Source: Roridomyces roridus (Eukaryota > Basidiomycota > Agaricomycetes > Agaricales > Mycenaceae). From it: a stretch of DNA of 64,000 nucleotides. The position numbers and the translations under genes are program-made. The notes beneath the pieces are model-generated. The model was not told the origin of the DNA, ran no database searches, and saw nothing but the letters and a program-made list of their open reading frames with translations. The stretch lies in the NCBI GenBank assembly GCA_029378245.1, contig JARKIF010000002.1, forward strand, positions 3,348,001-3,412,000, given 5' to 3'. This document shows, piece by piece, positions 8,914 through 51,274 of the stretch. Numbering within the stretch: position 1 is the stretch's first letter; every line of letters starts with the position of its first letter.

Positions 8914-9001
8914 AGGAGCTCGGCCCGAGTCGAACGGGCGCCTGTTGTCTTCAAGTATTCAACAGATGTGGACCAACCACCACCAAGCTCTTTGGCGCTC
9001 T
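8914..9001 (-). repeat. tRNA-like repeat, compact 75-nt form
   Basis: On the minus strand a 75-nt core has acceptor GAGCTTG/CGAGCTC (7 bp with one G-U), D-like hairpin GTGG..CCAC, third stem CTGTTG/CAACAG with a 12-nt loop, and T-arm GCCCG-TTCGACT-CGGGC. It is close to tRNA size, but the third loop is too large for a normal anticodon arm. Confidence 0.7.
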
Positions 9002-9187
9002 GCGGGACTTTCGAAATTTGATGAGAGGCCTACAACCAAATTTCGAAAATTGTAAATCCTTTGCAAGATGTTGGACAACGGAGGAGTTCGGAATAAGGTG
9101 TGTTATTATATGGCTCACGAATCCGACGATAGACGTCGTGCGACTCTGTTACCGGCGAGGAACTGAAAAAGGAACCAGGCCATCCTC

Positions 9188-9277
9188 AGGAGCTTGGGCC
9201 GAGTCGAACGGGCGCCTGCTGTCTTCAAGTATTCAACATATGTGGACCAACCACCACCAAGCTCTTTGGCGCTCTGC
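9188..9277 (-). repeat. tRNA-like repeat, second compact copy
   Basis: Sister of the 8914 copy. The acceptor is a perfect GAGCTTG/CAAGCTC, the third stem is TGTTG/CAGCA with one wobble, and the T-loop is TTCGACT. The flanking segment ending in GCTCTTTGGCGCTCTGCGG is also shared, so a block of about 100 bp is duplicated. Confidence 0.65.
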
Positions 9278-9473
9278 GGGACTTTCAAAATTTGACTAGG
9301 GCCTACTCAGAAGGGTCCTCTGGAGGTCGAAAATCGCAAATTCCAAGATCCAAGATGATAGACGACGGAAGAACTTGGAAGAAGAATATGGCTCGTGGAT
9401 TCCAGCGACAGGCGTCGTGTTTCTCCCCCGCCGCGTGACTCCAAAAAAAAGAGACTTGAACCCGCTTCACCAC

Positions 9474-9550
9474 ACGAGCTTGGGCCCGGGTCGAACGGGT
9501 ATCCTCTGGCCTTGCCAGATGTAGAACAACCCCACCCGAGCTCTTTGGGC
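9474..9550 (-). repeat. tRNA-like repeat, shortest form (about 68 nt)
   Basis: Minus-strand elements: GAGCTCGG..CCAAGCTC acceptor with one mismatch, third stem TCTGG/CCAGA with a small loop, and T-arm loop TTCGACC. It overlaps the 3' side of the intergenic region before the F-box gene at 9.68 kb. Confidence 0.55.
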
Positions 9551-9676
9551 ATTCTTGTCATTTTGAACACTTGATTAAAGTAGCAACAATCCCGAGTCCA
9601 CCCGAAACTCATCCGTCGAACATTCCCGCCAGACGCCTCCCAGTTTCCTCCATGCCGTATCATCTACTCCTCGGCA

Positions 9677-10788
9677 TCAGCGCAGAGACAAGTTGAACAT
9701 CGGCAAGCACGTACACAAATAACACGCTTGCAGACTCGGAAAAGCATCCGCCCACGCCTGAATCTCACTTCGCTCGGACCCTTTGTGTGTTGGAAACTCC
9801 TGAAGGTAGCCAACAGCGAGGTATTCGAGCCGTTCGAATGGCGGTAGGCGTCCCTTGATGTAGTCCATACTTTCCTGCGTCGAAGCTCAACCAAAAATCC
9901 AACGCAAACGTGGAGAACGTACCTGATTAGTAACTCGAATCTGCAGACTCCCCGTATGAGGTATATATTTCGCCAGGTACGACAAAACAGCAAGCGCATC
10001 TTCCGGTGTGGAATAAAACTCATTCGAAGAGATGAAAGGGGCGTGCGGGTCACTGAGTACGCTTAACGCCGCCACGGTATCCTCGATCATCGCTCTGTGC
10101 ACGTTCAAGAAAAGCCATCGGAGGTGGGCTGCGCGGAGAGTCTGCGTCGAACGTAATCCCCGGATGAGCCGAGCCGGACCGTCGTAGTATACGAGGTTGG
10201 GAAGTGGGATCAATGCATCACGGGGGATGCTAGTCGACCATGGGATGCGGAGGTGCGTTATGGTTGGATGATTGGCTAGGAATTGAATGACTGGGTGTGC
10301 GTCGAGTGGGAAGGCGATGAGACAGTCCGTGAGGTGAGGGAAGAATAGCGAGGGGAGCTTGGGTGCCATGGGATCTATGCTGCAGTGGATTTCCAGGCGC
10401 TCGAGTCGCCTCATAAGTTTCATTGACTCGATCAATTGTTCAACTAGGAGAGAGGGCGGAGCGCCTCGGGCGTGTCTGCGATGAAATCTTGGTCAATCAA
10501 CGCGGCAGAAAAAATAGCCACATACCGGATCGTCAACGAACGAATGGCAGCCGCCCGCGCCGGATACGCAACAAGTGCCGAACAAAAGGCGCCCAGCGTA
10601 GCGCTGGTCGAGGCACCCACTCGAAGCGTAACGGCGCGGTTCAAAACGGATAGCGATAGACTTTGGAATAATCTCGACACCTGACAAAGAGTGGCCTGGT
10701 CCGACTTGGGTAGATTCTGGATGGCCTCCGTGATCAACTCGTCTGGGAGCGCGCGGGTAATAACCAGGGGGATTGTGTCGATAGCCAT
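9677..10788 (-). CDS. F-box protein, divergent family
   Basis: Spliced model on the minus strand: 10788-10526, 10475-9923, 9874-9677 (1,014 nt, 337 aa). The introns are 50 and 48 nt with GTATGT and GTACGT donors, and the frame is continuous across both (SLTIR-HARGAPP, QIRVTNQ-ESMDYIK). The N-terminus has an F-box-like helix set (ALPDELITEAIQNLPKSD, then ATLCQVSRLFQSLSL), followed by LRR-like strands (RRLERLEIHCSID, TITHLRIPW). It does not resemble the F-box/LRR clan that dominates this window. The likely role is an SCF adaptor, inferred from the fold. The model shows no damage. Confidence 0.75.
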
Positions 10789-11746
10789 GGTTGAGAAGTG
10801 CTGGAGTGGGGGAAGAAGGGACGAGGTGGAGGCAGGCAGGCACTGGCGTATTATAGATCTGTGGGCCGGAATGTCAAGAGTGTGTTGAACCCCTGTGCTA
10901 AGCTGTAAATGCTAAGGCTTGACAGGAATCCGTTCCCGGTGGCGTATGTTTGAATAGATTTTCTGAGGCCTCAGCGGTCCTTACCAGATTCGTCTGACCT
11001 CCGTGACGCTGGATGGCCGCGAGGCCCGTAAGCGATCCGTGAGAGGCGGGTGTGTGTAGAGAAACGGGGACGTACTGGGCGAAAGAAAATTACTGGCGGT
11101 GAAGACCATCATGGAAATCAAGAATAGAAAGGCACGAGGAGGTTGAGGTGGGCTGCAGAACTGTGAGACTCCCGTTGGTAAAGATGATGTGTGAACCTTG
11201 AGATCAGCGCGGCGCTGATCGGGGATTCAGACAATTGAGACGGCAGCGCTAGCATTGTTCAAAATGACTGGTCTACACCAATTTCGGTGCCGGGTCTGTC
11301 GGATGGCATTTTCCTTGGCCCGAACTGCCAATGGGCGCCGCCAGAACGGAAGTGAACGTTGAATGATATGAACGAGGATCAAACGGCAATCAAAATGATA
11401 CATTCCTTTCTGATGTAACTAGGGTTAGGGTTAGCGCCGCGTCCCGGCATAAAAAAAGGCCCACCCAGCCGAGTGGCCGTGGTGAGCAGGAAAATATTTG
11501 GACGGTGCATGAGCCGAAGCCCATACAAACCGCAAGCCCACTCTGTATGGACAGGGTCGCCGTGCTATGGAGTGTTCCTACGGCCCATACACCCAGGGAT
11601 GTGAAGGGGCGTATGCCATCAAGGTAAGTATGAGTTGCTTCGATGTTGGCAAGCTGCTTTTATATGGCAGGAGCGCGCACGGACCATCTTGGCGTACGCG
11701 ATGTGTCACGTGTAAATTCGGGCCTGATCTTGACCACCATCTGGCC
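10789..11746. other. Intergenic, with a short interstitial telomere-like motif
   Basis: No gene seen. At 11420-11434 the sequence reads TAGGGTTAGGGTTAG, just over two units of the TTAGGG telomere repeat used by many fungi. The last ~100 bp before the F-box gene at 11747 matches the upstream flank of the relic at 25.68 kb, so promoter sequence was copied with the gene. Confidence 0.45.
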
Positions 11747-13489: not shown

Positions 13490-13605
13490 GTCGTTGCGCG
13501 TGCCAAACATCCGACGATGATGAGGAGGAGTAGGTAAGTACGCCTTTACGAATGGAATTTAACTGAATGTCTTCCAGTTGTTATAAATTGGTTCCAGATT
13601 GAATG

Positions 13606-13982: not shown

Positions 13983-13990
13983 GGTGAAAG

Positions 13991-14912: not shown

Positions 14913-15251
14913 GGTGAAAGCCAGTAATGTTTCTCGCCAATCCCAGAACTGCATCGGAAAAAAGGGGGTAATACAATGCGGACCAGTTTTGTAGTGTGTA
15001 AGGCTTGGTGGGTGGTCCAGAGAAGTACCCAGTTGAAGAGGATGTTCGTTCGTTCAACTTCGAATCGGGCACCCGATAGATTTTTTGGGTCCTTTGCGAC
15101 TGCGAATTTCTCAGTAGCATCCAATTCCGAATCGTCGTGTGATCAGCCCCCATTCGACGTGTTCAGCATAAAATTCAACTTCAATACATATTCCTCCTAG
15201 ACTCGCAAATCAACCAACTCCCAGCCCTCCTTTTCCTCCTCCTCCGCATTT

Positions 15252-16855
15252 TGTCAGGCATGCGGCAACGAAGCCTCAACTTGTTTCCATCCCGAAAAAT
15301 ACCGATTCGGCGCCATCTGCCCCCAGGTGATCCCACCGCCAATCCTGACACTCAATCTTCTCAAGGCGGGGGGAAGAGTTGCCTCACAAAGGAGGCCACC
15401 GTGTCCGGGTCGCCGATTGGGGACGAGGCGACGTCCAGGACGGAGAGGGGCGACTCTAAACTCGTTGTTGTGGCATCTGTGGCCAGAGGGTCGGCGGGGA
15501 CGTGCGAGGCGTCGACGTCGATTCTGAGGTTGGTGAGACAAGGGCATTGTATTGCGAAAGCGCGTAGCCCGGAGAACGTCAGTACGGGAGCATCCTGGAG
15601 ATCACTAGCATTGCCCATCGGTGAGCTTAGCGAGAGAATCGTGAGGTCTGGCCACGCGCGGGCCATGTCCCAAGCGAGTGCGTCGTCTAGTCCCAGTAGA
15701 ACTGGAGAGCAGACACGGAGGAACTGTAAATTTTGAAAGGTGAAGAGGGTAACGAGAGATCTATTGCTGTCGAACGATAGCGGAAACCCCGCGGTAGGAG
15801 AACGGAGCCCGATGTCCAGCATCCGGAGAGTGGCATGCGAAAGCGAATCAACCAACAATGTATAGACCTCGCTGAACATTGTTGGGTCATGTAATTGGAT
15901 GCCAGCAGTGAAACTGTCCAGTTCACAGCTGGGAGGAAGCATCCTGAGGATTTTGTTGACACCGCTATATGATACATCTCCGAGTTTGAGCGTACGCAGA
16001 GCAGGAAATAGAGCTCGACGGGGCGCGACCGAGGATGAACAGCCTATATGTTCGGCATCCACATTGAAAAGCTCCAACGACCGCAGGGTCTCGAGTTGGG
16101 AGAGATGTTGGAGCGCAGTGCGATCGAGATTTGCCACAGAGAGCACTTCGATTCGGTTTAGCCGCAAGACGAGGCTGGATGTGCTGCGGCACTCAAAGGA
16201 AGAGTTTCCCGGGATGTGAAAGTTGAGCTTCTGCACGGATAGAATGCTCAGGTCGAGGGGTACGGGAGGGGACACCCCAAACACGATGATGGCAGCACTC
16301 TCGAGATTTGGGGAGAGGAAAAGGTTGAGAAAGGGGAGCTGTGCGTCCTCGTCCGATCTCCACAATAAAGTGCGGAGGTTTGGGCACAGGTATCTGTGGG
16401 GAAGACCGGCACGAATGGCTTCAAGCACGCTGGCATCGGGGAATGCGTCGTGCCGAGTATCTGAGCAGTTCAGCGTTAATGTTTGGATGCGGCTGGCATA
16501 GAACAGTGGCCTGATCCAGTACTCTGGAGTTACTGGGCCAAGTAAGCGCGGAAGCAAAAAACTATTTATTACGCGGCGACGGTCATTGACTGAGAATGCT
16601 CACCAGATAGAACTGTCCCTCATCCCGAGGTGATGACCCCACAGATTGCTCCCAAAGATGAGAGGGAAGACACTTCACGACGTGGCGGAGTGTCGTCTGC
16701 TCGCTCCACAGCGTGTCCAAAGCGGGATTCAGAAAGTCGCGGCACGTCACTGCGAGAGCAGCCAGAGTCTTGTCACGGGCCGGTTTGGGAAAGAGGTTGC
16801 GCAGCTCCGAGAAGATGAGGTACACGATCTCGGGAATGCAGAGACCTCGATGCAT
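15252..16855 (-). pseudogene. F-box/LRR-type gene, inverted copy with a lost acceptor and 3' frameshifts
   Basis: The F-box exon starts at ATG 16855 (MHRGLCIPEIVYLIFSEL, LAVTCRDFLNPALDTLWSEQ) and ends at a GTGAGC donor. The expected acceptor before RLLGPVTPEYW reads CCG instead of an AG, and the next AG leads to TAA. The LRR part (16.56-15.36 kb) closely matches the left-edge gene. At about 15368 a run of six C adds one base relative to that gene (QLFPPP-stop instead of QLFPHLEK), with a second +1 change near 15330; the C-terminal MAPNRY..GWKQVEASLPHA is recoverable only in other frames. A sequencing error could explain one lesion, but not all three. Confidence 0.7.
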
Positions 16856-23829: not shown

Positions 23830-23928
23830 TTTCTGACACGAGCCGCACACGGGCTGCACTCTGTCACATTTCTAGCATGGGCACAGTCAGGGCGGTCATG
23901 GATTTGCCACGCCTTTGAGTTGACGCAC

Positions 23929-28942: not shown

Positions 28943-29037
28943 CCGGGCTCGGCAGTGGGTGGACCCACATCGCCAATGATTGTAGTGGAAAATCTGGACT
29001 ATCAGGAGAAGGTGCTCGTTCGATTCGAGCCCGGGCC
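28943..29037 (+). repeat. tRNA-like repeat, plus cluster copy 1
   Basis: The 92-nt core is GGCTCGG..CCGGGCC (acceptor, one G-U), GTGGG-TGGA-CCCAC (D-like) and GCTCG-TTCGATT-CGAGC (T-arm). The third stem is weaker here (TCGCC/GGAGA, one mismatch). Confidence 0.7.
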
Positions 29038-29268: not shown

Positions 29269-29364
29269 GGGCTCGGCAGTGGGTGGACCCACATCTCCAA
29301 TCAATGATTTGACCAGTTTCAAAATGCCAGGAGAAGGTGCTCGTTCGATCCGAGCCTGGGCCTT
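29269..29364 (+). repeat. tRNA-like repeat, plus cluster copy 2
   Basis: Same core as copy 1, with third stem TCTCC/GGAGA (5 bp) and T-arm GCTCG-TTCGATC-CGAGC. Confidence 0.7.
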
Positions 29365-29720: not shown

Positions 29721-29814
29721 TCAGGGCCTGGCAGTGGGTGGACCCACATCTCCAATGGCTGTATGTACTGCGTGTATCAGGAGAAAGCGCTCGTTCAATT
29801 CGAGCCTAGGCCCT
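29721..29814 (+). repeat. tRNA-like repeat, plus cluster copy 3
   Basis: Same core: GCAGTGGGTGGACCCAC, third stem TCTCC/GGAGA, T-arm GCTCG-TTCAATT-CGAGC followed by CTAGGCC. Confidence 0.7.
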
Positions 29815-30050: not shown

Positions 30051-30142
30051 CAGGGCTCGGCAGTGGGTGGACCCACGTCTCCATCAATTGTGGTGCGCGT
30101 AGCGATCAGGAGAAGATGCTCGTTCGATTCGAGCCCGGGCCT
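30051..30142 (+). repeat. tRNA-like repeat, plus cluster copy 4
   Basis: Same core: GGCTCGG..CCGGGCC acceptor, GTGGG-TGGA-CCCAC, third stem TCTCC/GGAGA around a different ~30-nt loop, and T-arm GCTCG-TTCGATT-CGAGC. Confidence 0.75.
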
Positions 30143-33656: not shown

Positions 33657-34303
33657 GAAGTAGGCGCTTGTCGTTATAAGAGGAGGAGGAGGTCGTGAAC
33701 AAGATCGTGGATGCTAGGAGGCTGGCACAACAAAGCCTCACATTCATTCCCATCAACATTCACTTCCGCGGTCGTCTTCTCGCATTCATTCAGTGGGGCT
33801 TTGAAGAAGGCAGCAGAGGAAAAGAAGCAATCCATCTGCTCGGCAACGTGGATCGGTGTTTTCGGCGCCGACCTCCAGACTCCACATGATGCATGCCTCG
33901 TTCATCAGACGCCCTTGTTCACGACAATACTGAGATCGAACCCTATGTTAAAGGGGACGAATACAAGTCTGGTCCTCGTCGACGGTCAGGCATATCCTGG
34001 GACATTTTTTACAGTCTTGCGCCGGGTCAACGTTGAATATTGATGTCAATTTGAATATGGTTGAATGGCCTTTACGGGTTCCGAGTCTTAAAAATTTATT
34101 TTTAAGCTCGGTATTGAAGTCAAGATCTTCCAGCCTTCAGTGCTCAAGAATTTGGACAGCTGGAAAGTGGTAATGGCGGGCACCCAAACAAAAGGATGGG
34201 AGTGCCTTATACCTCGGGCTCGAGTCGAACGAGCGACTTCTGCTTGAGAATGGTGGTGATTAACATCAACAGCCCGCAGATGTGGGTGCGCCCACCACCA
34301 AGA
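33657..34303. other. Intergenic, ending in a split tRNA-like repeat
   Basis: No gene seen from 33.66 to 34.20 kb. At 34211-34303 a minus-strand tRNA-like repeat (T-arm GCTCG-TTCGACT-CGAGC, third stem TCTGC/GCAGA, D-like GGTGGG..CCCACC) is cut in its 5' part by the copia element; its continuation starts at 39413. Confidence 0.6.
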
Positions 34304-34563
34304 TGTAGAAATTTGGGGGATGTAATTCTATATTCAAGCTAACTACGTCAAGGCTTTTATACCTTTACAGAGAACAATAGAACAAATAATCTACAAAGTA
34401 GGAGTCATATAGAAAGTAGTAGAACAATAGAGAATAGCAACAAGTGGAGCGACGAAGTGGAGTGTTGCCATAGTTCAGCTATGGCTATGTTCGGGCATGC
34501 CTCGGGCATGTTCGACAACGGGCTGTGCGCAGCCTCGTGCTCGGTTTGCTCCAACTTCCAACA
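34304..34563 (-). repeat. Copia 3' LTR
   Basis: 260 bp; with respect to the minus-strand element this is the downstream LTR. Matches 39153-39412. Confidence 0.9.
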
Positions 34564-34570
34564 CTCCCCC

Positions 34571-37500
34571 TCAAACCGAAGTCAGTCCCAGCAATTGGAC
34601 CAGTGGTTTGAACTTGAAAGCGGCCAGCGCCTTCGTGAAAATATCCGCCGTCATCTCTGCGGTCGGACGGTAGACAACCTCCAGTTTCCCAGTTTCGATC
34701 TGCTCGCGAATAAAGTGGTAACGAATGTCAATGTGCTTCGTTCGAGCGTGAAATTGACCGAGTTCGGCATGTGCGAGAGCAATGGCCGATTGGTTGTCGT
34801 TGTAAATGATGAAGGGGAAATTTATGGTTCCAAAGAGTTCGGCCAGAAAATATCTGAACCAGATAGCCTCCTTGGCAGTGTACGTGATTGCAATGTATTC
34901 AGCTTCCGTCGTGGAAAGTGAAACGATCTCTTGTTGTTTGGATGACCAAGATACGGCAGCGCCGTTCAAAATAAATGTGTATCCTGAGATTGCCTTTCTG
35001 TTCTCCAGTGACATCCCGTCGGCATCCGCAAAAATATCCAACCCAAGTGTTGTGTCAGATGAACTGTATCTGAGTGCAAGGGTTCGAGTGCCCTTCAAAT
35101 ATTGGAGTACGCGCTTGGCGGCGTTCCAATGCGGTAAGCCGGGATTGTCCACAAATTTGGATAAGATGCAGACTGTAAAAGCTAAGTCTGGTCGAGTAGC
35201 TGTTGATAGCCAGACTAGTCCTCCAACGAGCTCGCGGTACGGAATATTGCGCATGTCCGCGGCGGTGGTTGAGTCGGTAGGACATTGGTCTCGGCTCAGT
35301 TGAACAGTAGGGTCTAGAGGAACGGATACTGTCTTGCAGTCCGTCATGTTGAATTTCGCCAGCAACGAGTCAATGTACGTTGTCTGCGATAATTCCAATG
35401 TTCCCTTCTCGCGATCGCGTTTGACTTCCATCCCGAGTAACCAGCTGATCGGTCCGAGCATGGTAATCTTGAACATCTCGGCGATCTGTTGTTGAATTTC
35501 GTCGATGAATGCTGGTGAGTTCCCAGTAATGGTGCTGTCGTCGATATGAATGGAAAGAAGCGCGATGTCGTTCCCACGAACAACGCGATAGACAGCGTGA
35601 TCAGAATGGAAAGGGTGGATGCCAAGGGTTCCGAGAGAACTCGTAAGTTTCTCATACCACTTGCGGCTCGATTGTTTCAATCCGTAGATTGTACGTTGCA
35701 GTCGGATCACTTCGTCCGAATTGCCGTTTGAATAATGTGGAGCTTGCTCCATATAAATTTCTTCGTCAGGTGAAAATTCGCCGTTGAGGAATGCCGCCGA
35801 GAAATCAAACACTTTGATATCCCAGTCGTAACGTGCGGCTATTGCGAGGATGGTGCGTAGAGATGCCATTTTGGCCGTAGGAGAGAAGGTTTCAAAGTAA
35901 TCCACGCCAGGGACTTGAGTGAACCCTCGAGCGACGAGTCGAGCCTTGTACTTGTCAATTTCGCCGTTGGCTTTGCGTTTGATCCGTAAAGCCCATTTAG
36001 ATCCGACGACGTTCCGGCCAGCCGGACGTCTGACTAATCCATTACCAAATGTGCCCGTTCTCTTCATCGCTTCCATCTCTGCATCCATCGCGGCCTTGAA
36101 CTCTGGCCAGTCGTCTCGCGTCTTTGCCTCTTCGACCGTGGGCGAGTCCGACATGCTCCCCATACCAAGATATGCGAATTCCGGCCCTATCTCGTCCAGT
36201 AACGAGTCATCCGTGGCTGCCAGGTGTGCGGCTGCGCGCCTTGTTCTGGTACCTTCCACGATGTTCTTCGGGTCAATATCGCCACAAATGTTGCGTGGAG
36301 CGACCGTCTTCTGCCGTTGGGGTGTATCTGGGGGTGTCGAGAGCGGTGATTCGCTCGGAGGAATGGGATCGGGGTCTACAGGCTCAAGTGCGTGCTGGAT
36401 GCTCTGTGACTCCATCTTCTGCTGACTATTTCCATTCTCCCCCTCATTCAGCACTCTGTACAACTCGCCTCCACTCCGTTTGACGTCGGGAAACCTCACG
36501 CTACGCTCTACGCGTATGGCGCGCGTGTCGGGGTAGTAGATCCGGTGGCCTTCGATGCTGTCAGGGTCAAACCCTAGCCACCGTCCTTCCCTCGATCGTC
36601 CGTCGAGCTTGCCGTTGTCGTCTACGTGTACGGTGACGTGGCAGCCCCATTCGTGAATGTGTCGGAGGTCGGGCATAGTCTTGTGGAATACCTCGTAAGG
36701 TGTCCGTCCGCCAAGAACTCGTGTCGAGGTACGGTTCTTCAGCCAGACTGCGTGTTTGAGTGCTTCTCCCCATAGGTTCCTCGGCAATTCTGCTGCGTGC
36801 AGCATCGCTCGCACCTTCTCAAGAAGCGTGCGATTCACTCGTTCGGCTACTCCATTGTGCTCGGGAGTGTCGTGTACCGAGTATCGTCTTTGTATGCCCT
36901 TCTTCGCGAGATAGTCATCAAATTCCCCATTCTTGTACTCGCCACCGTTGTCGGAATGCAGAATTTTAATCTTGATTCCGTGCTCCGTGCCCCATCGTGC
37001 GTCAACATTCTGGAAGGCTTCGAGCGTCTCGTCCTTGCTGTGCATGAGGACAACGACGGTGTAGCGAGAGGCGTCGTCCGTGAACGACGAGTAGTAATGC
37101 TTCTTCTGGGGTGTTGCGAGCGTCGACGGTCCCCACACGTCGGTGTGAACTTCGTTGCCAACCTCGCTCGATATCTCACGAGCCGTAGCTCTTGAAATGG
37201 GCTTCCTAGTCATCTTGCCGTGCAAGCATGACTTACAATCCTCCGTAGAGGTGCGCCCCGTCTCCTCCAATTCAATCCCAGTGACGTTCTTGGCGAGATT
37301 CTTCGCCACTTCAACAGGAACATGTCCCATGAGCTTATGTAGCTCTTCCGCCGTCGTAACGAGCGGACCAACGTCGGCGAGTTTCGCGTGAACTCCGGAT
37401 GGTGGTGCGCGGACAGTGTACAAGCCACGCGTGAGTGGAATGGTGCCGATGCGTCGATGAGTTGGATCGAATATTCGGCATTCCGCGTCCCTAAATTGAA

Positions 37501-38923
37501 CAGCATAGCCGGCTCTTGTGATGCGTCCGATGGAGATTAGGGTGACGCCTAGGTCGGGTACGTACAATACGTCCCGCAATAAGACTCTGGTCGTTTTGTT
37601 CCGTCCGTCCGGAACTTCAACATGCATATCCCCCGTCCCAAGTGCGTGTAGCATCCTGTTGCCCGCGGCGACAATATCGCGTGGCTGGACTGAGCGGAAA
37701 TTTTGCAGTCTTTCTCTTGACGCCGTCATGTGTTGGCTGGCGCCGGAGTCGTATATTTCGAGTTCTGAGGTCGGGTTGGTGGTGACGGTTGCGGCGATGA
37801 GGTCGTTCGAGGTAAGTGACGCAGTTCTAGTTGACTCGTCCTGTGGTTGTTCGCTACCTCGCGGCTCGGCATCTGCACTCGACGTCGTGGTCTCCGGCAG
37901 AGCCAAACTGTCGTAACAGCCGCCCTCCATCTCCGACGCGTCGTTCTCATGTCCATCAAATTCGTCAAAGTTCAAGTCCACCTCCAATTCCCGCCGGAAC
38001 GCAACCCAGGCCGCCTCCAATTCGTCGGTCCTGGCAACGTTCGCTCGATGTCTGTTTTTCTGATGAGGGCTCTGTCCCTCTCTTCCACCTCCCTTCGCCC
38101 AGCATTCTTTGGAGACGTGTCCCCTCTTGTGGCAGTTGAAACATTCGACCATCGGCTTCTTGAACTTGGACGCAAATTTGTGGTTGTTGCCGCCTCCGTA
38201 GAACGCGGCTTCTTTCTCGCCCTTCGATGTAGGTCTCGCAGCTTTGCGATCGGCCTCATCACTGATCCCTTGTAGAACAGTGTCGGGATCGAGAGTCTTG
38301 CCAAGAAGCGTGGCGGCGCCCGTGAGCGCCGATAGATATGTTTCGTATGATGCGGGTAGGGAGCCCAGGACGATAGCGACAAAATTATCGTCTCCGGGAT
38401 CGGCGGCCATAGCGATGAGGTCCGCCCGAATCGTTTGCAGTTTGTTGAGGTGAGCTTTGACGTCTCCCCCTTCTGCACAACGTTCGTCTTGAAGTTTACG
38501 GCGTAAGTCGACCGTAACCATCTTCGACTTCTTCTCAAATTCGTCCTTCACCCTCATCCACATTGCCCTAGCATTTGCTGCATCCTTCACCTTCAAGAAT
38601 AGCAAGTCAGGAAGAACAGAGGCAAGACCTTGTTTGATGATGGCCTGCTCAGATTTCCAGACACGCCGACGTGCGAAGTAGGCATTCATAGCTGACGTTT
38701 CCGCCGTCGTTGGTGCTGCAGCGTCAGCAACGGTCGGGGCTGATGGTTCCGCCGCCGTGCCCAAGGGTGTATCCTCGAAGTGGTCGCTGAGTCCCGCCGC
38801 GTCCAGCGCGAAGAGAAAACGATCACGGAAGAAGACCCAATTTGTTCCGTCGGCCTTGCAACCAGGGAGCTTCGTGAAGTATTCGCCTAGTTTCGCCGTC
38901 GAGGACAGTGTGTTGGTAGACAT
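34571..38923 (-). CDS. Copia Gag-Pol polyprotein, intact (1,450 aa)
   Basis: One open frame with the Ty1/copia order. Gag-like helical region from about residue 10 to 240; CCHC zinc knuckle (CFNCHKRGHVSKEC) near 260; protease active site DSGAS near 393; integrase zinc site (H-H-C-C, ending CKSCLHGK) near 530-575, with catalytic residues in VHTDVWG, HSDNGGEY and HNGVAERVNR; reverse transcriptase (IKVFDFSAAFLNGE, then IHIDDS in place of the usual YVDD) near 1040-1150; and RNase H (DADGMSLENRKAISGY, STTEAEYIA) near 1310-1380. The Asp-Asp pair of the RT is kept; only the first two residues of the box differ. No frameshift between gag and pol, as is usual for copia elements. Confidence 0.95.
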   Translation of the reverse strand: MSTNTLSSTAKLGEYFTKLPGCKADGTNWVFFRDRFLFALDAAGLSDHFEDTPLGTAAEPSAPTVADAAAPTTAETSAMNAYFARRRVWKSEQAIIKQGLASVLPDLLFLKVKDAANARAMWMRVKDEFEKKSKMVTVDLRRKLQDERCAEGGDVKAHLNKLQTIRADLIAMAADPGDDNFVAIVLGSLPASYETYLSALTGAATLLGKTLDPDTVLQGISDEADRKAARPTSKGEKEAAFYGGGNNHKFASKFKKPMVECFNCHKRGHVSKECWAKGGGREGQSPHQKNRHRANVARTDELEAAWVAFRRELEVDLNFDEFDGHENDASEMEGGCYDSLALPETTTSSADAEPRGSEQPQDESTRTASLTSNDLIAATVTTNPTSELEIYDSGASQHMTASRERLQNFRSVQPRDIVAAGNRMLHALGTGDMHVEVPDGRNKTTRVLLRDVLYVPDLGVTLISIGRITRAGYAVQFRDAECRIFDPTHRRIGTIPLTRGLYTVRAPPSGVHAKLADVGPLVTTAEELHKLMGHVPVEVAKNLAKNVTGIELEETGRTSTEDCKSCLHGKMTRKPISRATAREISSEVGNEVHTDVWGPSTLATPQKKHYYSSFTDDASRYTVVVLMHSKDETLEAFQNVDARWGTEHGIKIKILHSDNGGEYKNGEFDDYLAKKGIQRRYSVHDTPEHNGVAERVNRTLLEKVRAMLHAAELPRNLWGEALKHAVWLKNRTSTRVLGGRTPYEVFHKTMPDLRHIHEWGCHVTVHVDDNGKLDGRSREGRWLGFDPDSIEGHRIYYPDTRAIRVERSVRFPDVKRSGGELYRVLNEGENGNSQQKMESQSIQHALEPVDPDPIPPSESPLSTPPDTPQRQKTVAPRNICGDIDPKNIVEGTRTRRAAAHLAATDDSLLDEIGPEFAYLGMGSMSDSPTVEEAKTRDDWPEFKAAMDAEMEAMKRTGTFGNGLVRRPAGRNVVGSKWALRIKRKANGEIDKYKARLVARGFTQVPGVDYFETFSPTAKMASLRTILAIAARYDWDIKVFDFSAAFLNGEFSPDEEIYMEQAPHYSNGNSDEVIRLQRTIYGLKQSSRKWYEKLTSSLGTLGIHPFHSDHAVYRVVRGNDIALLSIHIDDSTITGNSPAFIDEIQQQIAEMFKITMLGPISWLLGMEVKRDREKGTLELSQTTYIDSLLAKFNMTDCKTVSVPLDPTVQLSRDQCPTDSTTAADMRNIPYRELVGGLVWLSTATRPDLAFTVCILSKFVDNPGLPHWNAAKRVLQYLKGTRTLALRYSSSDTTLGLDIFADADGMSLENRKAISGYTFILNGAAVSWSSKQQEIVSLSTTEAEYIAITYTAKEAIWFRYFLAELFGTINFPFIIYNDNQSAIALAHAELGQFHARTKHIDIRYHFIREQIETGKLEVVYRPTAEMTADIFTKALAAFKFKPLVQLLGLTSV

Positions 38924-39152
38924 GATGAGGTCAGGTCACAGAGAGTCAAGATTCAAGTAAGCACAGATACGTATATCTGTAAAACAAATGTGAGTGATTT
39001 AAAATCGGTTCGTAAACCCTATAAGCTTGATGTCGTCGAGTCCAGCTCGAGTCAATATGCGCTAGATCCTGAAAGTCAGTAGTTAGCCTTGAACGGTTCA
39101 GGCTGATGAGGATGGTTCAGGCACGAGGTATCAGCGTCGGGGGCCAATAACC

Positions 39153-39412
39153 TGTAGAAATTTGGGGGATGTAATTCTATATTCAAGCTAACTACGTCAA
39201 GGCTTTTATACCTTTACAGAGAACAATAGAACAAATAATCTACAAAGTAGGAGTCATATAGAAAGTAGTAGAACAATAGAGAATAGCAACAAGTGGAGCG
39301 ACGAAGTGGAGTGTTGCCATAGTTCAGCTATGGCTATGTTCGGGCATGCCTCGGGCATGTTCGACAACGGGCTGTGCGCAGCCTCGTGCTCGGTTTGCTC
39401 CAACTTCCAACA
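39153..39412 (-). repeat. Copia 5' LTR
   Basis: 260 bp, upstream LTR of the minus-strand element; it should carry the promoter. The adjoining internal sequence (minus strand GGTTATTGGCCC, 39141-39152) is where a primer-binding site is expected. Confidence 0.9.
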
Positions 39413-41031
39413 CAAGATATACTTGTTTCTGCATGAGTCTGTTATATCCATCACGGAATTGACGTCGAAGTCGGACGTCGAGTTGGCGAGGGTCGGGGAC
39501 TCACTGTCCTGGGCATGGGTAGCAAAGGTTCCTGCTGCTTCATTTGAATCCGAAAGATGCTAGGATTCAGTGTCGAAAGCCCGGTTCGCAACACACTGTC
39601 AAGGTGAAGGCTACATGGCTTTGAACCATCTCCAAAGGCTCTTCTTCGCGGAAAAAAATGTACTTTAACATCATCACGCCATGAGTCAGGCTCGAATCGT
39701 ACGAGCGCCGTCCGCTCCATACCCCACACCTGACTGAAGAATGTGCCGAGGGACGCGACCCACCGCTGAGTCTCAATTTGGGCATGCGAAATCGAGCAAG
39801 GTGAATCTCTTCCATGAATATATTATACGCCCGGCAAAGAAAGGCTCGGAGGGGTCTTATGGTTCGCATCTGAATTGAGCCAAGAAGCCGGGGATGGTCC
39901 AGGCACCAACGCGAGTGCCGTCCATTTTCCACAGTCTTGCACTGTCGAAAAGATTGACCAACCTCCGATTGTTATCCAAAACAAATTCGAGGCGTCTGAA
40001 ATCAACTACAGTCCAGTCAAGTTTCTACCGTTGTGAACGATTATCCAACTTGAGTTGATCTTTGGGCCCGGTCGCGAATGTGAAGTCAAGACCTCCCTTT
40101 GAGCAAACTTCCGGATCCTCAGGCTTCTCATAAAGTGGAAAATCCAGGAACTCAACATTGTTGAAAGTCGTCCGGTATCAAGTGTCGAGTGGCTCCCGAG
40201 CAAAGAGAAAAAAGTTTGGGACCGGCTGTCCAATAGCTCGGGCTCGAGTCGAACGAGTGACTTCTGCTTGAAGTTTACCTCAGCTATCAGCAACAGCTCG
40301 CAGATGTGGGTGGCACCCACCACCGAGTTATACTTGTGTCCGCAGAGTCTGTTATACTCAACACGGAATTCGGTCGAAATTCCCACGGTTGAAAGTATTC
40401 AGTCGGCAAGAGCCGAGGAGCTCTACCATGAGCAACGGGTATCATCTTAGTGCTTCATTTCACAGGAGAGGCCAAGGTTCTCGAGCCCAAAACAACTTTC
40501 AAGGTGCCGGCTCTAGCGCTGGAGTCAAGCAGAAACCTGGAAATTCGTCTCAAATTTTCAAATTTTCTCCCTTCGTTGGCTTTGAAATCAAGCCCACAGG
40601 CTCTTCTTCGCGGAAAAAGAATAACAAGAAATACACATGACTCGGGCTCGAATCGAACGAGCGCCGTCCGCTCCCAGTGAGACACTAGACCACCATGAAT
40701 CTGCTGAAGGACGCGACCCACCGCCGAGTCTCGATGTAGGTCTGAACTTTAGAATTCACTCTTTTTTGTCCAACGGGTGAACAAAAAATCTGAAACCGTT
40801 TGCAGAAATCCCCATGGCTGGCTCCGAATCGAACGAATACCAACTCTGAGCAAATTGACACCCAGATTCAGCGTCTGCAGTTAGTCTCACCAGGTTTGAG
40901 AATGGCCAGATCTCGGCAACAGGTTCAAGAAACTAATGCACACATTATACTACGAATGATTATCCACTACGCCGTCCATTTTCCACTGTTCCAAGAAAGC
41001 AAGTCAGTAGTCCGCACATCTACACCTCATC
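39413..41031 (-). repeat. Intergenic with three tRNA-like repeats
   Basis: After the end of the split repeat, minus-strand copies lie at about 39684-39774, 40235-40328 and 40636-40734. The 40636 copy folds best: acceptor GACTCGG/CCGAGTC (7 of 7), third stem CGTCC/GGACG and T-arm GCTCG-TTCGATT-CGAGC, 92 nt in all. The 39684 copy has the same third stem and GACTCAG/CTGACTC (6 of 7). The 40235 copy uses TCTGC/GCAGA. A T-arm remnant lies near 40822. No gene seen. Confidence 0.65.
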
Positions 41032-44250: not shown

Positions 44251-45290
44251 GTATTGAATTTCCGTGGACTTTGATAACTGTAGTGATAGTCTGTTCTGTA
44301 TCCTGTATCACAATTCTATTTGACTTGAATTCTGTTCAAAAATCTTTGCGACAACGAGACCATGGCTCGGGATCGAATCGAACGAACAGTTTTTGCGGCA
44401 TGGATCGACAAATTACACGGATGACTCGCAAATGTGGGACCACCCAACCGAACCTTTCCAGTCATTTTGAAAAGTGGTCCAATACCAGCGCTCACCAGGA
44501 TGCTGGGAAACAAAAATATATACTGGGTGAGCCACAATATGGCTCAGGCTCGAATCGAACGAACAGTTTCTGCGTGAGGCTGGAGGCAATCTGCTCTTAT
44601 TCGCAGATCTGGGACCACGCAACCGAACCTTTCCAGTCGCAGTTGAGAAGTGATCCAATACCTGCAGCGTTTTGGTTTGACGAGTCACGAAAAGAAAAGG
44701 TGATATAGATCACCCCATAACCCCTCATGGCCCGAACACTCTCTGCGTGAAGTTTTGAAAATGTGGGACCACCAAACCGAACCTGTCCAACCCGAATTGG
44801 TAAGTGATCCAATAGCAGTGTGTGTCCTCACGACGCCGGCAAGAAAAATTATTTTATGACACCCGTATGCAACCACATGGCCCGGGCTCGAATCGAACGA
44901 ACTCTTCCCGCGTAAGGCAATGTAACGCCATCGTACTGTTGGCAAATGTGGGACCACCCAACCGAACCTCTCCAGTGTTGCTCGGAACGTGATTCAACGG
45001 AAGACTTGTACCCGAGAGGGAAAAATCGAAATCGAACCGGTACCAAGATGTCCATGGCCTGGGTTCAAATTGAACGAGTCCCAGCCCCCGAGAGGTCCTG
45101 GACGTGTACGTATCCTTTTGACCGATTCTGTCCAAAAACTTGTTCACCCCGCCCAACGGCTCGGGCTCGGGCTCGAATCGAACGAACGTTTCTGCGTGGA
45201 GGTATTGAACGGTTTCTTCCCACTTATTCGCAGATCTGGGGCCACCCACCGAGCCTCTCTAATCCGAGTTGCAAAGTGATTCAATACCTG
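44251..45290 (-). repeat. Head-to-tail array of tRNA-like repeats (left part)
   Basis: Six minus-strand copies: 44361-44457, 44539-44630, 44726-44785 (T-arm lost), 44876-44970, 45054-45110 (partial) and 45157-45255, at 105-190 bp spacing. Shared parts on the minus strand are GGTTCGG..CCGAGCC-type acceptor halves, TGGG-TGGT-CCCA, a TCTGCG/CGCAGA-type stem, and T-loop TTCGATT. Each copy is preceded by a conserved leader (minus strand TTGGATCACTT..). The array is split by the Mutator-like element and resumes at 49.88 kb. Confidence 0.75.
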
Positions 45291-45627: not shown

Positions 45628-48600
45628 TCACTCCGCCGCGCGCCCGCCTTCACCGCCGTCTGCCATTTCTTCGCGCCTCGGAGGTCGGGGCCGATAGAAC
45701 ATCGCCGATCCGATTGATTTATCCCACGTCGAAGGTGTCGTGCCTCGTGTCGATCTCTTCTCCTTCGACAAGCACGCCTTCGCCAGGCGCAGGAACGACG
45801 CGCCCTCGCGTTGCAGCGCCTGGAGCATACGCTGGTCCCGGAACTGCCGCTGGTACTTCAGGCCCTCCGCAAACTGGATCAACGTGTCAATGCCATCATC
45901 CATCGCTTCCACGAATGTCTGCCCGTCTTCCTCCAGCTTCTGCGTGTCCACCACATCGTCGTCGTCATCGTCATCTTCAAAGTCCGACATGCCCCCGCCC
46001 CCGTGTCCTGCGCGTCGTGGAGGCTCATCTTCATCACTGTCCGTTCCAGCCATTGCCGTCGTGTCGGCGTCAGTGGAGCCAGTTCCGTCAGCCGCGGGTC
46101 GCAGTGACGGATGCGCCCAGAACGGCACGGTTCGTTGTCTCTTCACCTCGAGGAAGAACACCGGAGGCACGCGCCGGTAACCCTGTACAACGTGTTTGCA
46201 GATGAGAAAGCGCGAGATGGCAAAGGCCGGACAGGTACACAGCCCTTTCTTCATGTCTGTCTTGTACGCAGGATTGACGGGTAGCGTGATAGGTCTCTTC
46301 TCAAGCTTCCGCCACTCGCGCTTGAAGTCCTTCCGCCAACAAGGAAGCTCGCGGTACCTCCCTGTCTCGACCAGTAGTCGTTCAAGTTTCCGATAATACG
46401 TCGGCGCCATCTTGGCAACGAGGACCCAGGTTACCAGATCGCAGCGTGGCATATGGAAATGGTGCAGAAAATCGTGTTTGATACGGCGCCAGCTGGGATA
46501 ACAGTGAGTCAATGTCAAGACGAGTGGCATGTGGTACTTACTGGCTTTCCAGCATCATGGTCGTCTTGAGCACCGGAATTTCTTCATGCACACTTCGCGC
46601 CCAGAGCTCCCATCTGGTTGCGCGGTACCAATTCTCCCAAAGGTACGCCCACACCTCAGGGAGATCGTTCTCAACGCAAAATTTATACATTTGCGACACC
46701 GCCCATCGCTTGATGCCCTCTCGACTCGGATGGGCGTAACCGGGGAGCAAGGGATGAGCACAGTAGTGCCGCTCCATCATGTTGATGATAGCGTCTCGGT
46801 ATTCGGCTGGGCAGAAGCGTCTGGGCTTTTTCTCGGGCTCCTGCTCAGCGGGCGGCGATGCAGTAGTACCGGTGTTTTTCGATCCGGCTTTTCCTGCGGC
46901 TGCGCGGGCCCTAATCGCGCGCGTCACTGCCTCGGGGGAGGCTGCATCAGCGAAGCGCGCAGGCACCTTTCTCGCACGGCCTGACCTCGTCCTGGACGTG
47001 CCACCGTCTGTCTCCGTGCCACCTTCCGTCTCCGTGCCATCGACCGGGTCGCTGTCAGGGTCGACGTCACTTCCAGAACCCGCGTCGCTGTCGTCGTCGC
47101 TCTCACTCCCCGGGCGTTGGGTGCCGAGATCGCGTGCTGGGATTCTGATTTGCGTCCCAGAGGGTGCTATTGTTGGCGGACCTGGACCCTGCGATGCGGC
47201 AGCGACGGGAGTGACATTCTCGTGAGTACCCCCCTCATACTCGCCCCGATCTTCCTGACCCCGAGGAATGAAGTCCAGGTCGATGAAGGAGAACTCCGCC
47301 CTGGCACGCGCCGCATCATAGGGTGTTGTTGCGAGCTTCCCGCTCGATAGACGCGTACGTACAGCCCGCCGCAGATGCCACCAACACAAACTGATCTTGG
47401 CATTCCAGGTTTCCAGCAACGTGCCGATTTCCGCCATGTCCTTGTCGACGTGGGTGAATTTAGGGAAGACGCCGTACGTATCGCGAACACATTTGGCCCA
47501 TGCTGTAAGTGCTTTCTTGCGCTTGCCTTGACTGATTGACGTCGCAGTCGACAAGTAGAGATATGAGATCGGGAAACCAGCGCCCTCGTGCTCAGCCATT
47601 ATGCTGTACAGCTCAAGGTGCTTCGAGTTCGTATCGTCTGCCTCGTTGTCAGTTTGGGCTCATCGGGCATATAGGAAAACAACGTACATGTGGCATCGAC
47701 ACCGATCTCAACAACCTTTCCCCGAAGTGGGCCGGCGATCTTCTTCATACCCCAGCAAAGCATCTCGACACCCTCCGGGATGTCCGTCGGCGTGAACAGA
47801 TCAACATCGTCGCCGTACTCCCGCAGCAGCTTCTCCGCCGATAGAAGCTGAGCCTCGTCACGACGCCAGTAGATCTCACTCATTTGGGTCCAAGCGCGGT
47901 GGACTTGAGCGGAGGAAACCTCCGGAAAGCTCGCTTGAACCTTCGTGACCATCGCGACCGGAGTAAGCCATTCGACATTCTCGCGAATCATGTCGATGGC
48001 AGCGGGTGGCATGGACACATCGAAGTAGCAGGTGTGCTTGGTGGCATGAAAGAGAGTGACGGCCACCGTGAGCTCTTCGTCGCAGTTCTTCTTCGGGCGG
48101 CAGCTAATGGAGAGCTTGCTTTTGCAGGGGTACCGTTTCATGCCCACGTTATCTCGGTTGCGGACATCTGGATTCGTCGAGGCCTTGGATTTCTTCTTCC
48201 GTGCTTCGTCTTGACTGCACCAATACCGCGTCCGGTGCCCGGATTTCAGCACTTTGTTGTCCTTGACACTGTGCAGGTAAATAAACCTCGAGCTCGTTCG
48301 AAACGATGGGAGGTACTCACGTAAAACGATAGCCACCTATCTTCCATATCTCAGTAGCCACCATCTGAACACGCTCCTTCGGAGACACCAACGGATCGAC
48401 GGCAATAGTGTATGACCCGGAGAAAGCCACTGGACCACGTTTAAAATGGCCTCGGAAGGCATCGAAGAAGCCCTCAGCGTCCGCAAAGGTCTCCCCTCCG
48501 TCACGCTCTCCTGCGCCGGCGTCGTCTTCCGAGTCTGAGTCCACTGTGGTCCGTGGACGTGTCGAGGGTCGCTCATCGGCATCGTCATCCGCTGGCCGCC

Positions 48601-48841
48601 CTCGTTTCCCACTGTCGGACGCCTGGGTATCGAGAGAAGTATTCGGCTGGGATTTACTAGCGCGTTTCTTGCGTTGCGCGTTGCGATCCTTTTCGCGGCA
48701 AGCGTCGCAGGTCTTTACAGTAGAGTCCAAGGGTAGCTTGTTGTGGCACCACCTCTTGCCGCACTCTTTCGGCGTGCCATTCGTGTCGGCGGGTGATGCT
48801 GGGGGCGGCGCACTATCCATGGACACAAATGTGTAGTTCAT
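45628..48841 (-). CDS. MULE transposase with SWIM zinc finger, intact (1,020 aa)
   Basis: Spliced model: 48841-48321, 48268-47688, 47637-46542, 46492-45628 (3,063 nt; introns 52, 50 and 49 nt; phases agree). Order: an N-terminal Cys pair region (CGKRWC..CDACREK) and a long Asp/Ser/Arg-rich linker; a WRKY-GCM1-like zinc region (YWCSQD, CKSKLSISC, HATKHTC); the catalytic core starting GVDATYDTN (first Asp), AEHEGAGFPISYL, FTHVDKDMAEI (second Asp) and LCWWHLRRAV; an acidic insertion; ESHWRRIKHDFLHHFH; and a SWIM finger CTCPAF..LICKHV. This order is typical of MULE transposases. The third acidic residue could not be placed with confidence because of the insertion. Splicing across DAT|Y and ESH|WRR restores family motifs, supporting the exon edges. 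Confidence 0.9.
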
Positions 48842-48956
48842 GGTCAGAGAGAAGAGATTGGTGGCACGCAGCGCGACGTTGTTTACATAAGACGCGTACA
48901 ATACGAGAAATAATGCTCTAACTCGGGTATGTAGAACAATACAATCATATTCTGAT

Positions 48957-49790
48957 TTGATTTCCTTTTTTGGATGTCAGAGGTGGGGGAGGCGTTGGCT
49001 GGCTCATCCTCTACGCTCTACCGTCTCTTTCTTGCCGCAACGGACTCCCAGATTGCGCTCAAGACCTTCCAGTTCTGCCCGTCCACTGGACCCTCACATC
49101 TGCATATCCGGCCTGGTCCGCAAGACAAAGATGCGGCACACCAACACACCTCAAGAGTCGACGGAGCGGTCTACCGAGAGCTGACGCACGAGCTGGGAGA
49201 GGATGAAGGGGTTGGGCTCAAGGTGTGTCGCAGTCTTCTCCCGCTTCCAAGAGGGTCTCACTGTATACATAGTCGTCGCCACCGTGACCGACACGTCGGT
49301 CGACGGTGACCGCATCCACCCATACGATTCTATGCCAACGACTACCACCGTTGTTTCCTGCTCGTTACACCCTTCGCTCATCACCAGGCCATGTGCCAAG
49401 GCCCTCGGGTGGTCCCTGGACGAGGATGTGTCGGACTTTGGCGCGTCCCTCGTTAGTGCATCGTTGGCCGCTCATCCTCTCCGCGACGCGAGTAGACCTC
49501 AACTTGTGCAACGCTCGGGTTTGGTGCGACTCTTGATCAGTGCTCAGCGCTCGTCGGAAGGTCAAGGCGACCCGAGTGGACTCCGATGGAAGCAGCACGC
49601 TCAGCGCTGTACCTGTACTCGCATTTCTTTCAATGTACGCAGTAGTATGGACCTAACGGTAATAGATTATAATCGTATGTCGACAACGGGGCTGTATTGC
49701 GGGGCTAGCTCGTCGAAGGCCCCAGAGACGAGCAACACTTACACCTGTGCCGAAGTGCCGAATAGCCTTATATGGATTATTAATCATTGA
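48957..49790 (+). other. Possible second ORF region inside the MULE
   Basis: On the strand opposite the transposase, two overlapping frames read like protein: MSEVGEALAGSSSTLYRLFL..RVDGAVYRELTHEL (from 48974) and VFSRFQEGLTVYIVVATVTD (from about 49230). They join only with a frame change near 49200-49230, and no good intron is visible. It may be a captured gene fragment or a decayed accessory gene. I recognise no domain. Confidence 0.3.
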
Positions 49791-49877
49791 TCGGAAGCAC
49801 CCCCAATTCAAACTCAGATCGACCAGCCTGTCTATCGACAGTGAAGCTTTCGATACAACAGGCTGGATTCGAGCCTA

Positions 49878-51274
49878 CAATACCTGCAGCGTTTTGGTTT
49901 GACGAGTCACGGAAGAAAAAGTGATATAGATAACTCTTATGGCTCAGGCTCGAGTCGAAAGAACACTCTCTGCGTGACGCCTCACAACACTTTCACATCA
50001 AATGGGACCACCCAACGGACCCTCGAGTCCAGTGCTGGTTGAAAAGTGAACCAACGGCAGCGTCTCACCCTCACGATTCTGGGAAAAGGAAAACATATGT
50101 CCCCTCCTAGACTCGAGGACCAGTCTGTCTATGAGATGTCTATCGACAACTCATAGACAGACCAGCTCTGGTCTAGTCCCCTCCGGAAAACGCAATATGG
50201 CTCGGAAAAGTGATACAATAGCCGTATTTTGCTCTCTCCGCGGGGAAAAAAATATCCTGAGCCTGCATCATGGCTCGGGCTCGAATCAAACGAACAGTTT
50301 CTGCGTGGAGGTATTGGACCATCTCTTCGAATTATTCGCAGAACTGGGACCATCCAACCGAACCTCTTCAGCTTCAGCTGAAAAGTGATCCAGTAGCGGT
50401 TTTTTTTTTTGCTCTCCCCGCGCGGCAAAGAAAAGGCAGAAATACACGCCCTAAGCGCCATGACTCAGGCTCGAATCGAACGAACACTCCCTGCGTGGAG
50501 GTATTAGACGGTTTCTTCGAATTATTCGCAAATCTGGGACCACCCAACCGAACCTTTCCATCCGAGTTGAGAAATGATCCAATCGCAGCGTTTTGCCCTC
50601 AAGAATTCGAGACAAGAAGCAATGAAAAATCGGTGAGCACCTTTTGATGCGCTGGGCTAGAATACGGAGGTTCATCCAAGGCTAGTAGGTAATCCAACCT
50701 TCTTTCCGAAAACCAAAAGAAAACTCTGCTGCCGGCCTCCCGACGACCAGCAAGGTCCCGCGTCCTTGATCAAGTGAATGACCCCTGTGATTTTTTTTCG
50801 GTGATTTTATGTTTTACTAATCATGCGAATCACCTCTTTACATGGTCCCCAGTCGGACGAGACAGCAGAGCGATGAATGGAGCGGCCCGGGTGAGGTCAT
50901 GAGGTCGATCATGTACCTCGTCCGACTCACCGGTCGATCGACGCTACAGAATAGGATCTCCTGTGCCTTCCTTCCTGTTCACCACGGCGCACTCGAGTAC
51001 CAGGGTCCCAGGACAATATCCTTTTCGATGCATACTCACAGAGAAAAGATGATCATCTTGCAAGTAAGGAGCAGTAGGTCGACCAAAAAGAGACGACTAA
51101 GCGCCGCAAGGCTGGGACTCGAGTCGAACGAAGACCTGCCGAAGGACATGTTCGAATGTTCGAAAGAAGGCGTAGTGCATTGCCAACTTCTGGATAATGT
51201 TCACACATTTACAGGCATCCAATCTTCCCACTCCTGCTACGCCTTCTCGCTCAACTCGTTCCCTGAAAGATACT
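49878..51274 (-). repeat. tRNA-like array (right part) and spacer
   Basis: Minus-strand copies at 49938-50022, 50269-50366 and 50458-50557. The 50269 copy shows acceptor GGTTCGG/CCGAGCC (7 bp with one wobble), TGG..CCA hairpin, third stem TTCTGCG/CGCAGAA (7 bp) and T-arm GTTCG-TTTGATT-CGAGC. A T-arm fragment lies near 51118-51134. The 68-bp MITE at 50108 separates the first two copies. From 50.66 to 51.27 kb no gene is seen. Confidence 0.7.
50108..50175. mobile_element. 68-bp MITE related to the MULE ends
   Basis: The 68-bp foldback TAGACTCGAGGACC..CTCTGGTCTA contains GTCTGTCTATGA and its inverse TCATAGACAGAC, the same palindrome as the MULE terminus. It is flanked by an exact 9-bp duplication GTCCCCTCC (50099-50107 and 50176-50184). 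The matching end motif, TAGAC start and 9-bp duplication make the nearby MULE the likely source of its transposase. Confidence 0.85.

Follow-up and report, generated by a model that had tools for sequence, protein, structure and literature searches.

A candidate family of locally amplified tRNA-like RNA genes, with a conserved shell and a changeable anticodon-position loop, in Roridomyces roridus

A 64,000-nucleotide stretch of the Roridomyces roridus genome (GCA_029378245.1, contig JARKIF010000002.1; C112:3348001-3412000, hereinafter designated the window) carries a cluster of short repeats built on the plan of transfer RNA (tRNA). We regard these repeats as probably a locally amplified, tRNA-derived birth-and-death family of RNA polymerase III (Pol III)-type genes whose products would be tRNA-like RNAs that do not decode, each keeping a paired shell around a loop that changes in both sequence and length. 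This view draws on pairing that has been retained; covariation does not reach significance. The assembly searched comprises 90.8 Mb in 501 contigs.

A tRNA-like shell around an expandable loop

A typical full copy consists, in order, of a 7-bp acceptor stem, 1-3 nt, a D hairpin (usually GTGGG-TGGN-CCCAC), 1 nt, a third stem of 5-6 bp with its loop, about 4 nt, the T-arm and the closing side of the acceptor. This tRNA spacing of the arms makes the third stem an anticodon stem, and the part that varies from 5 to >50 nt across copies an anticodon loop. The initial annotation had described the expanded part as a variable loop, a reading at odds with a third stem that lies 1 nt after the D arm and about 4 nt before the T-arm.

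A covariance model built on 16 window copies, and then run on the window and on wider sequence, recovers 22 window copies at E<=0.00035, including the 16 of the training set, and so bears out the earlier count of more than 20 repeats in a shared arm order. The range of 8914-50557 originally assigned to them is too narrow, as the set reaches 1.25-1.93 kb of the window and 3.707 Mb of the contig. The copies and weaker matches in the window are as follows.

1252-1340, minus strand: tRNA-like copy; TCTGC/GCAGA third stem, T-run downstream
1818-1932, minus strand: tRNA-like copy; loop of >50 nt containing an inverted piece of its own 3' shell
8916-8990, minus strand: tRNA-like copy; CTGTTG/CAACAG third stem, 12-nt loop
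9190-9264, minus strand: tRNA-like copy, related to 8916 as a sibling but diverged; acceptor intact, one pair missing in the third stem and one in the T stem
9477-9543, minus strand: tRNA-like copy; TCTGG/CCAGA third stem, 5-nt loop
13610-13691, plus strand: weak, decayed copy; model E 0.00035
28946-29037, plus strand: tRNA-like copy; TCTCC type with one mismatch (TCGCC/GGAGA)
29270-29362, plus strand: tRNA-like copy; TCTCC/GGAGA, T-run
29725-29812, plus strand: tRNA-like copy; TCTCC/GGAGA, T-run
30054-30141, plus strand: tRNA-like copy; TCTCC/GGAGA, T-run
34211-34304, minus strand: tRNA-like copy; its first bases coincide with the target-site duplication (TCTTG) of a copia element
39683-39772, minus strand: tRNA-like copy; CGTCC/GGACG version, 3' side of D hairpin absent
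40235-40329, minus strand: tRNA-like copy; TCTGC/GCAGA, T-run
40639-40730, minus strand: tRNA-like copy; CGTCC/GGACG version, 3' side of D hairpin absent
44364-44454, minus strand: tRNA-like copy; TTTGCG/CGCAAA third stem
44541-44629, minus strand: tRNA-like copy; TCTGCG/CGCAGA, one broken D-stem pair
44729-44783, minus strand: degenerate copy without T-arm; model E 0.033
44879-44968, minus strand: tRNA-like copy; TTTGC/GCGGG third stem, G-U rich
45164-45255, minus strand: tRNA-like copy; TCTGCG/CGCAGA
49941-50021, minus strand: degenerate copy; covariance model match
50272-50364, minus strand: tRNA-like copy; TCTGCG/CGCAGA
50462-50554, minus strand: tRNA-like copy; TTTGCG/CGCAGG

Hairpins of T-arm form (five standard pairs, G-U counted, and a TTCRANY loop) number 20 in the window, compared with a mean of 0.5 and a maximum of 1 in 20 shuffles; family membership holds for only part of them. 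The recurrent T-arm reported initially is thereby confirmed, but not its exactness, which fails at 9197, 40242, 44371 and 49948. Twelve unselected 4-kb blocks outside the window contain one such hairpin in total, with no T-run, and the window is therefore a hot spot for T-arm hairpins. With a four-helix descriptor, nine window matches outscore 17.0, the best of 6 randomised windows.

All five versions of the third stem quoted in the initial annotation are present in the sequence, and the changes noted in the acceptor and in the second T-stem pair (C-G or T-A) are real. The statement that the five versions sit at the same place needs qualification for CGTCC/GGACG (39.7 and 40.6 kb), which keeps the register but has its pairing shifted outward by two pairs; in both, the D hairpin is without its 3' side, visible as a six-column alignment gap. 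Full complementarity of the third stem likewise does not extend to the 28946 and 9190 copies, with the lost pairs given above. The inverted shell piece in the loop of copy 1818-1932 forms a strong hairpin (fold z -3.71).

Pairing is retained above a tree-aware null

For the tests of pairing, 47 model matches of >=31.7 bits from 60 sources were reduced to 39 by leaving out six near-duplicates on L053 and two weak matches (L102:94-185 and L052:604-690); eight of the 39 were then dropped as short, inserted or divergent, and 31 entered. Within the 16 window copies, 95.8% of cells pair and both sides change in 10 of the 22 pairs, with 0 of 500 shuffles as high. Since relatedness can mimic both-side changes, a tree-aware null was built. 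Across the 31 copies, pairing stands at 0.935 versus 0.703 under this null in the acceptor and at 0.916 versus 0.647 in the third stem (0/300 simulations each), with 0.934 in the D stem (2/300) and 0.981 in the T stem (9/300). The 19 of these 31 copies that carry the exact T-arm pattern were also compared with the null (acceptor, 0.932 versus 0.697, and third stem, 0.915 versus 0.760, 0/400 simulations; D stem, 0.929, 2/400). Arms also pair better with their own partners than with arms swapped between copies, at 0.916 versus 0.797 for the third stem and 0.935 versus 0.837 for the acceptor. Changes per column are most frequent in the third loop (10.6), followed by the acceptor (3.6), third stem (2.9), D stem (2.0) and T stem (0.7).

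The shell is conserved while loop and flanks diverge

In the four-copy array at 28.9-30.1 kb, the two shell halves are 0.93 and 0.89 identical, compared with 0.41 in the loop, 0.38 in the trailer and 0.49 in the leader, and the farther flanks fall to 0.19-0.35 (shuffled, 0.25-0.34). The six copies of the 44-50 kb set show the same pattern, with shell halves at 0.87 and 0.82, loop at 0.49, leader at 0.51 and trailer at 0.32. Loop identity is slightly above shuffle (0.30 and 0.26) in these two older arrays. Neutral copies this old would be unable to share such shells, so the lineages were constrained.

The same argument bears on the proposal that the arrays are functionless, decaying tRNA pseudogenes whose old shell conservation is an effect of ascertainment. 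Degenerate copies do occur within the same arrays, and the shell drifts in 4 of 11 young pairs (below), both in keeping with decay. Neutral old pairs with diverged loop and flanks could not, however, have kept 82-93% shell identity, and T-runs persist in 30 of 31 copies; we judge this proposal improbable.

A T-run follows the shell at a nearly fixed distance

A run of at least four T starts +10 to +32 past the acceptor in 30/31 copies (14-30 observed; shuffle mean 6.8) and a run of at least five in 27/31 (shuffle mean 2.5), whereas control A-runs of four are found in 2/31. The T-runs are kept although the trailers are not conserved. The copies thus show the B box with a nearby downstream T-run of a Pol III type 2 gene, the T-run being present in 30 of the 31. 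Separately, AT follows the acceptor in 20/31 copies on C112, often as ATG.

The T-arm pattern GYTCGTTCGANTCGARC occurs 143 times genome-wide, and its reverse 0 times. We read 96 of the 100 GYTCGTTCGANTCGARC places listed (four on C301 and C334 were left out), together with the C441 and C468 matches; after matches with <130 bases upstream were dropped, 102 were extracted, 88 of them non-redundant by exact comparison, with a few near-duplicates remaining. In these 88 matches, chosen on the T-arm alone, a run of at least four T lies within 80 nt in 79 (A-run control, 22; upstream control, 37) and a run of at least five at +17 to +39 in 63 (shuffle mean 4.4). Their upstream parts are diverse: 49 have no relative at the threshold used, and the rest form 11 groups, six of which are confined to one contig or its near-copies. 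Acceptor pairing of at least 6 is found in 22/88 (5.6% when shuffled), so most matches outside the C112 family show no full shell.

Taken together, the unit carries an A-box-like D arm, a B-box T-arm and a T-run terminator. Pol III would transcribe it from the internal boxes and stop at the T-run, giving an RNA of ~110-130 nt in which acceptor, D hairpin, anticodon stem and T-arm would form a tRNA-like shell around the freely changing loop at the anticodon position. Copies would arise by tandem and segmental duplication, with some young duplicates drifting freely, and the lineages that persist would be those keeping shell and terminator. The sequence itself displays compatibility with the fold, retained pairing, the contrast of shell and loop in old copies, the T-runs and the clustering; we infer transcription, processing and any non-coding RNA function.

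Evidence against the proposed fold and a DNA-level rival

Several results weigh against a maintained RNA fold. The initial annotation had named a lack of covariation above the phylogenetic background among the results that would refute its idea, and in its strict form that test goes against the idea: an R-scape-like G-test on the 31 copies places 0/22 structural pairs at E<0.05, and of all 4095 column pairs 13 non-structural ones score higher than the best structural pair, which is 14th. Minimum-energy folding restores no more than 143/216 of the acceptor pairs and 58/154 of the third-stem pairs, with a mean z of -0.84. The copies were gathered with a structure model (>=31.7 bits), which biases the set towards paired copies. 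In a second cluster, C290 (6 copies), the D and T stems are 100% paired, but the acceptor reaches 73% and the third stem 63%, and most covariation measures are no higher than shuffles, so that C290 is weak as second proof of the fold. Among young duplicates (11 non-independent pairs with leader divergence <=0.30 and <=2 leader gaps), four differ to a like extent in shell (15/240), loop (6/103) and leader (12/159); three of the four stem from one segmental duplication and the other is the 8.9/9.2 kb pair.

The remaining seven young pairs differ at 29/420 shell, 58/204 loop and 59/280 leader positions, bringing the pooled differences for all 11 to 44/660, 64/307 and 71/439, respectively. A mixture of this kind is expected under birth and death if some of the duplicates drift.

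The strongest rival is that the units act at the DNA level as Pol III/TFIIIC sites (promoter or chromatin boundary), with only the A box, B box and terminator mattering and the cloverleaf a leftover of tRNA ancestry. Recurrence of the B-box T-arm with a T-run across diverse matches agrees with this explanation, as does C290, where only the D and T stems are fully paired. The acceptor and third stem lie outside the boxes, however, and they change ~3-4x less than the loop and pair above the tree-aware null; we accordingly think a purely DNA-level role unlikely.

Local amplification and the lack of TSD and A-tail signals

A pattern running from the D arm to the T-arm matches 10 places in the genome, seven on C112 (3.377-3.708 Mb), two on C441 and one on C468. 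A pattern from the D arm to the third stem (<=1 mismatch) matches 24, of which 15 are on C112, 3 on C441, 5 on C468 and 1 on C390; shell patterns on C112 span 3.35-3.71 Mb, and further related shells lie on C68, C79 (two) and C15. The parts of C441 and C468 that were read hardly differ from C112, the comparisons giving 13 mismatches and 88 gap openings over 10 kb and 9 mismatches over 6.1 kb; haplotype comparison consequently yields no polymorphism data. From these placements, the spread of the family is mainly local amplification and not dispersal of the kind seen with short interspersed elements (SINEs).

tRNA-derived SINEs have a tRNA-like head with A and B boxes, and the family shares this head, these boxes and a high copy number with them; the genome does, moreover, hold a dispersed tRNA-like repeat of another kind. 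Old, decayed SINEs or another ordinary retroposon nevertheless seem very unlikely here. There is no target-site duplication (TSD) signal in the 31 copies, words shared between leader and downstream sequence averaging 6.00 in native and 5.91 in swapped combinations, with a shared word of at least 9 in 3/31 copies and in 3.5% of swapped pairs. No A-tail is found in the 31 copies, the A content of the 30 nt after the T-run being 0.24. The main cluster lies on one contig, with 23 of the 24 places above on C112 or its near-copies C441 and C468, and the shell is conserved and the loop much less so. Tandem copies, in addition, share their upstream leaders (identity 0.49-0.51; shuffled, 0.25-0.26), which a retroposon with an internal promoter does not copy.

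The core idea of the initial annotation, that the repeats are not decayed SINEs but tRNA-like RNAs whose loop can expand, thus appears partly supported: pairing above the tree-aware null, shell conservation against diverging loop and flanks, fixed-distance T-runs, local clustering and the missing TSD and A-tail signals favour it, while the zero count of significant covarying pairs and the young duplicates that change in the shell as fast as elsewhere do not.

Decoding capacity

The copies have the cloverleaf geometry and TTCRA T-loop of nuclear tRNAs, with GG in the D loop in 24/31, TTCRA in 26/31 and a discriminator A in 21/31. U33 is present in only 3/31, and the loop starts vary between copies (AATCAA, GAATAA, CAACAG and others), leaving no steady anticodon. 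Decoding in the usual way is excluded because U33 and a consistent anticodon are missing, and we conclude, judging by sequence, that the copies are not ordinary decoding tRNAs. That they are functional decoding genes carrying an ordinary tRNA intron as their long loop is therefore most improbable, notwithstanding their tRNA geometry and the three copies that ARAGORN calls tRNA-Ile; Rfam gives 0 window matches at gathering score. An intron-bearing tRNA can be read by eye elsewhere in the genome: L001 1491-1581 (minus strand), which we take to be tRNA-Gly(GCC) with a TTTTT terminator and an anticodon-loop intron of ~20 nt; ARAGORN makes no call at this locus. Features of tRNA-Val suggest a possible tRNA-Val origin of the family.

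Two loops (24 nt, <=3 mismatches) were searched against the genome as possible guides and matched only themselves and, in the case of one loop, a near-identical contig, leaving the guide idea unsupported by the loops tried.

Comparison with known systems

Non-decoding tRNA-like Pol III transcripts are known from animals and viruses. Nuclear tRNA genes, including those with anticodon-loop introns, resemble the family in acceptor, D arm, position of the anticodon stem, 4-nt variable region, TTCRANY T-loop, A- and B-box-like arms and downstream T-run; unlike them, the family mostly lacks U33 and a steady anticodon, has a very short D loop and consists of clustered paralogues with differing third stems. 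From tRNA-derived SINEs it differs in having no A-tail or TSD signal and no wide dispersal.

Vertebrate vault RNAs have a Pol III type 2 promoter, and between the strands of their conserved paired handle lies a centre that varies in both sequence and size (PMC9179338). They share promoter type and the pairing of a conserved part with a variable centre with our family, but form a panhandle rather than a cloverleaf, and the likeness is one of plan, with no homology claimed. The TMERs of MHV68 are viral tRNA-like structures made by Pol III that carry microRNA hairpins (PMC8223928), whereas the units described here have only a 14-30 nt trailer. By analogy with vault RNAs and TMERs, we infer that a scaffold or protein-binding role may apply to the family.

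Helenus TRIMp3 elements of fungi, animals and plants, with rusts among the Basidiomycota, carry a tRNA-like Pol III promoter sequence in a repeat; in fungi this sequence sits in long terminal repeats (LTRs) accompanied by 5-bp TSDs, and its structure is reported not to favour function as a tRNA (PMC10886601). A repeat bearing a tRNA-like Pol III promoter sequence is common to both, whereas Helenus is bound to LTRs: no LTRs were seen at the window copies and no shared-word signal around the 31 copies, around which no dedicated LTR search was made. Among the matches listed in an open-access literature search, covering titles and the starts of abstracts, no such fungal family was found, Helenus being nearest.

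It is conceivable, and we propose it only tentatively, that this mushroom possesses a multigene family of non-decoding tRNA-like RNAs, each with a conserved tRNA shell that presents a fast-changing loop (mostly 12-50 nt) where the anticodon would be, and that other, unrelated local clusters of its genome may be built on the same plan. Alignments of the clusters C61/C212 and C15/C43 were assessed only by eye. If real, a clustered fungal family that keeps its shell and leaves its loop free would open another setting in which to study how tRNA genes turn into other RNAs, and would caution that counts of tRNAs and SINEs in mushroom genomes may lump different things together.

Neighbouring features and other tRNA-like sequences

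The window also contains an element that is not part of the family.

34295-39413, minus strand: copia LTR retrotransposon; LTRs at 34295-34564 and 39144-39413

Its LTRs are 99% identical and one 1450-aa frame is open. It is inserted at the 5' end of copy 34211, and its TSD, TCTTG, falls on the opening bases of that copy. Eight other copia insertions were examined (one short partial match on C1 was left out); seven are readable at both ends, all seven with matching 5-bp TSDs, and none of the eight has a tRNA or T-arm-like hairpin in its flanks (161-331 bases per side, a few LTR bases included). Copia targeting of Pol III genes was hence rejected as evidence.

Among ten window open reading frames scanned, Pfam matches above cut-off are two fungal-specific transcription factor fragments, a glutathione S-transferase and the copia polyprotein. 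Relatives listed for the glutathione S-transferase come from agarics and other mushroom-forming fungi, with Mycena ranking first. Window positions 1-1197 and 15142-16364 form a large inverted duplication (83-90%) of a region with LRR-like open frames.

Other tRNA-like sequences, of GGYGATG..CATCTGCC type with a CCCGG or CCTGG T-arm, lie on C1 (L002-L004), two of them ~760 bp apart in L003/L004. A dispersed 76-nt tRNA-Ile(TAT)-like sequence occurs on many contigs (L009, L016, L022-L024, L030-L035), often paired 243 nt apart; where read (L016, L010, L035), its unit has GTTGAAGG upstream and TTTTCCAACA downstream, and it looks like a Helenus-type LTR.

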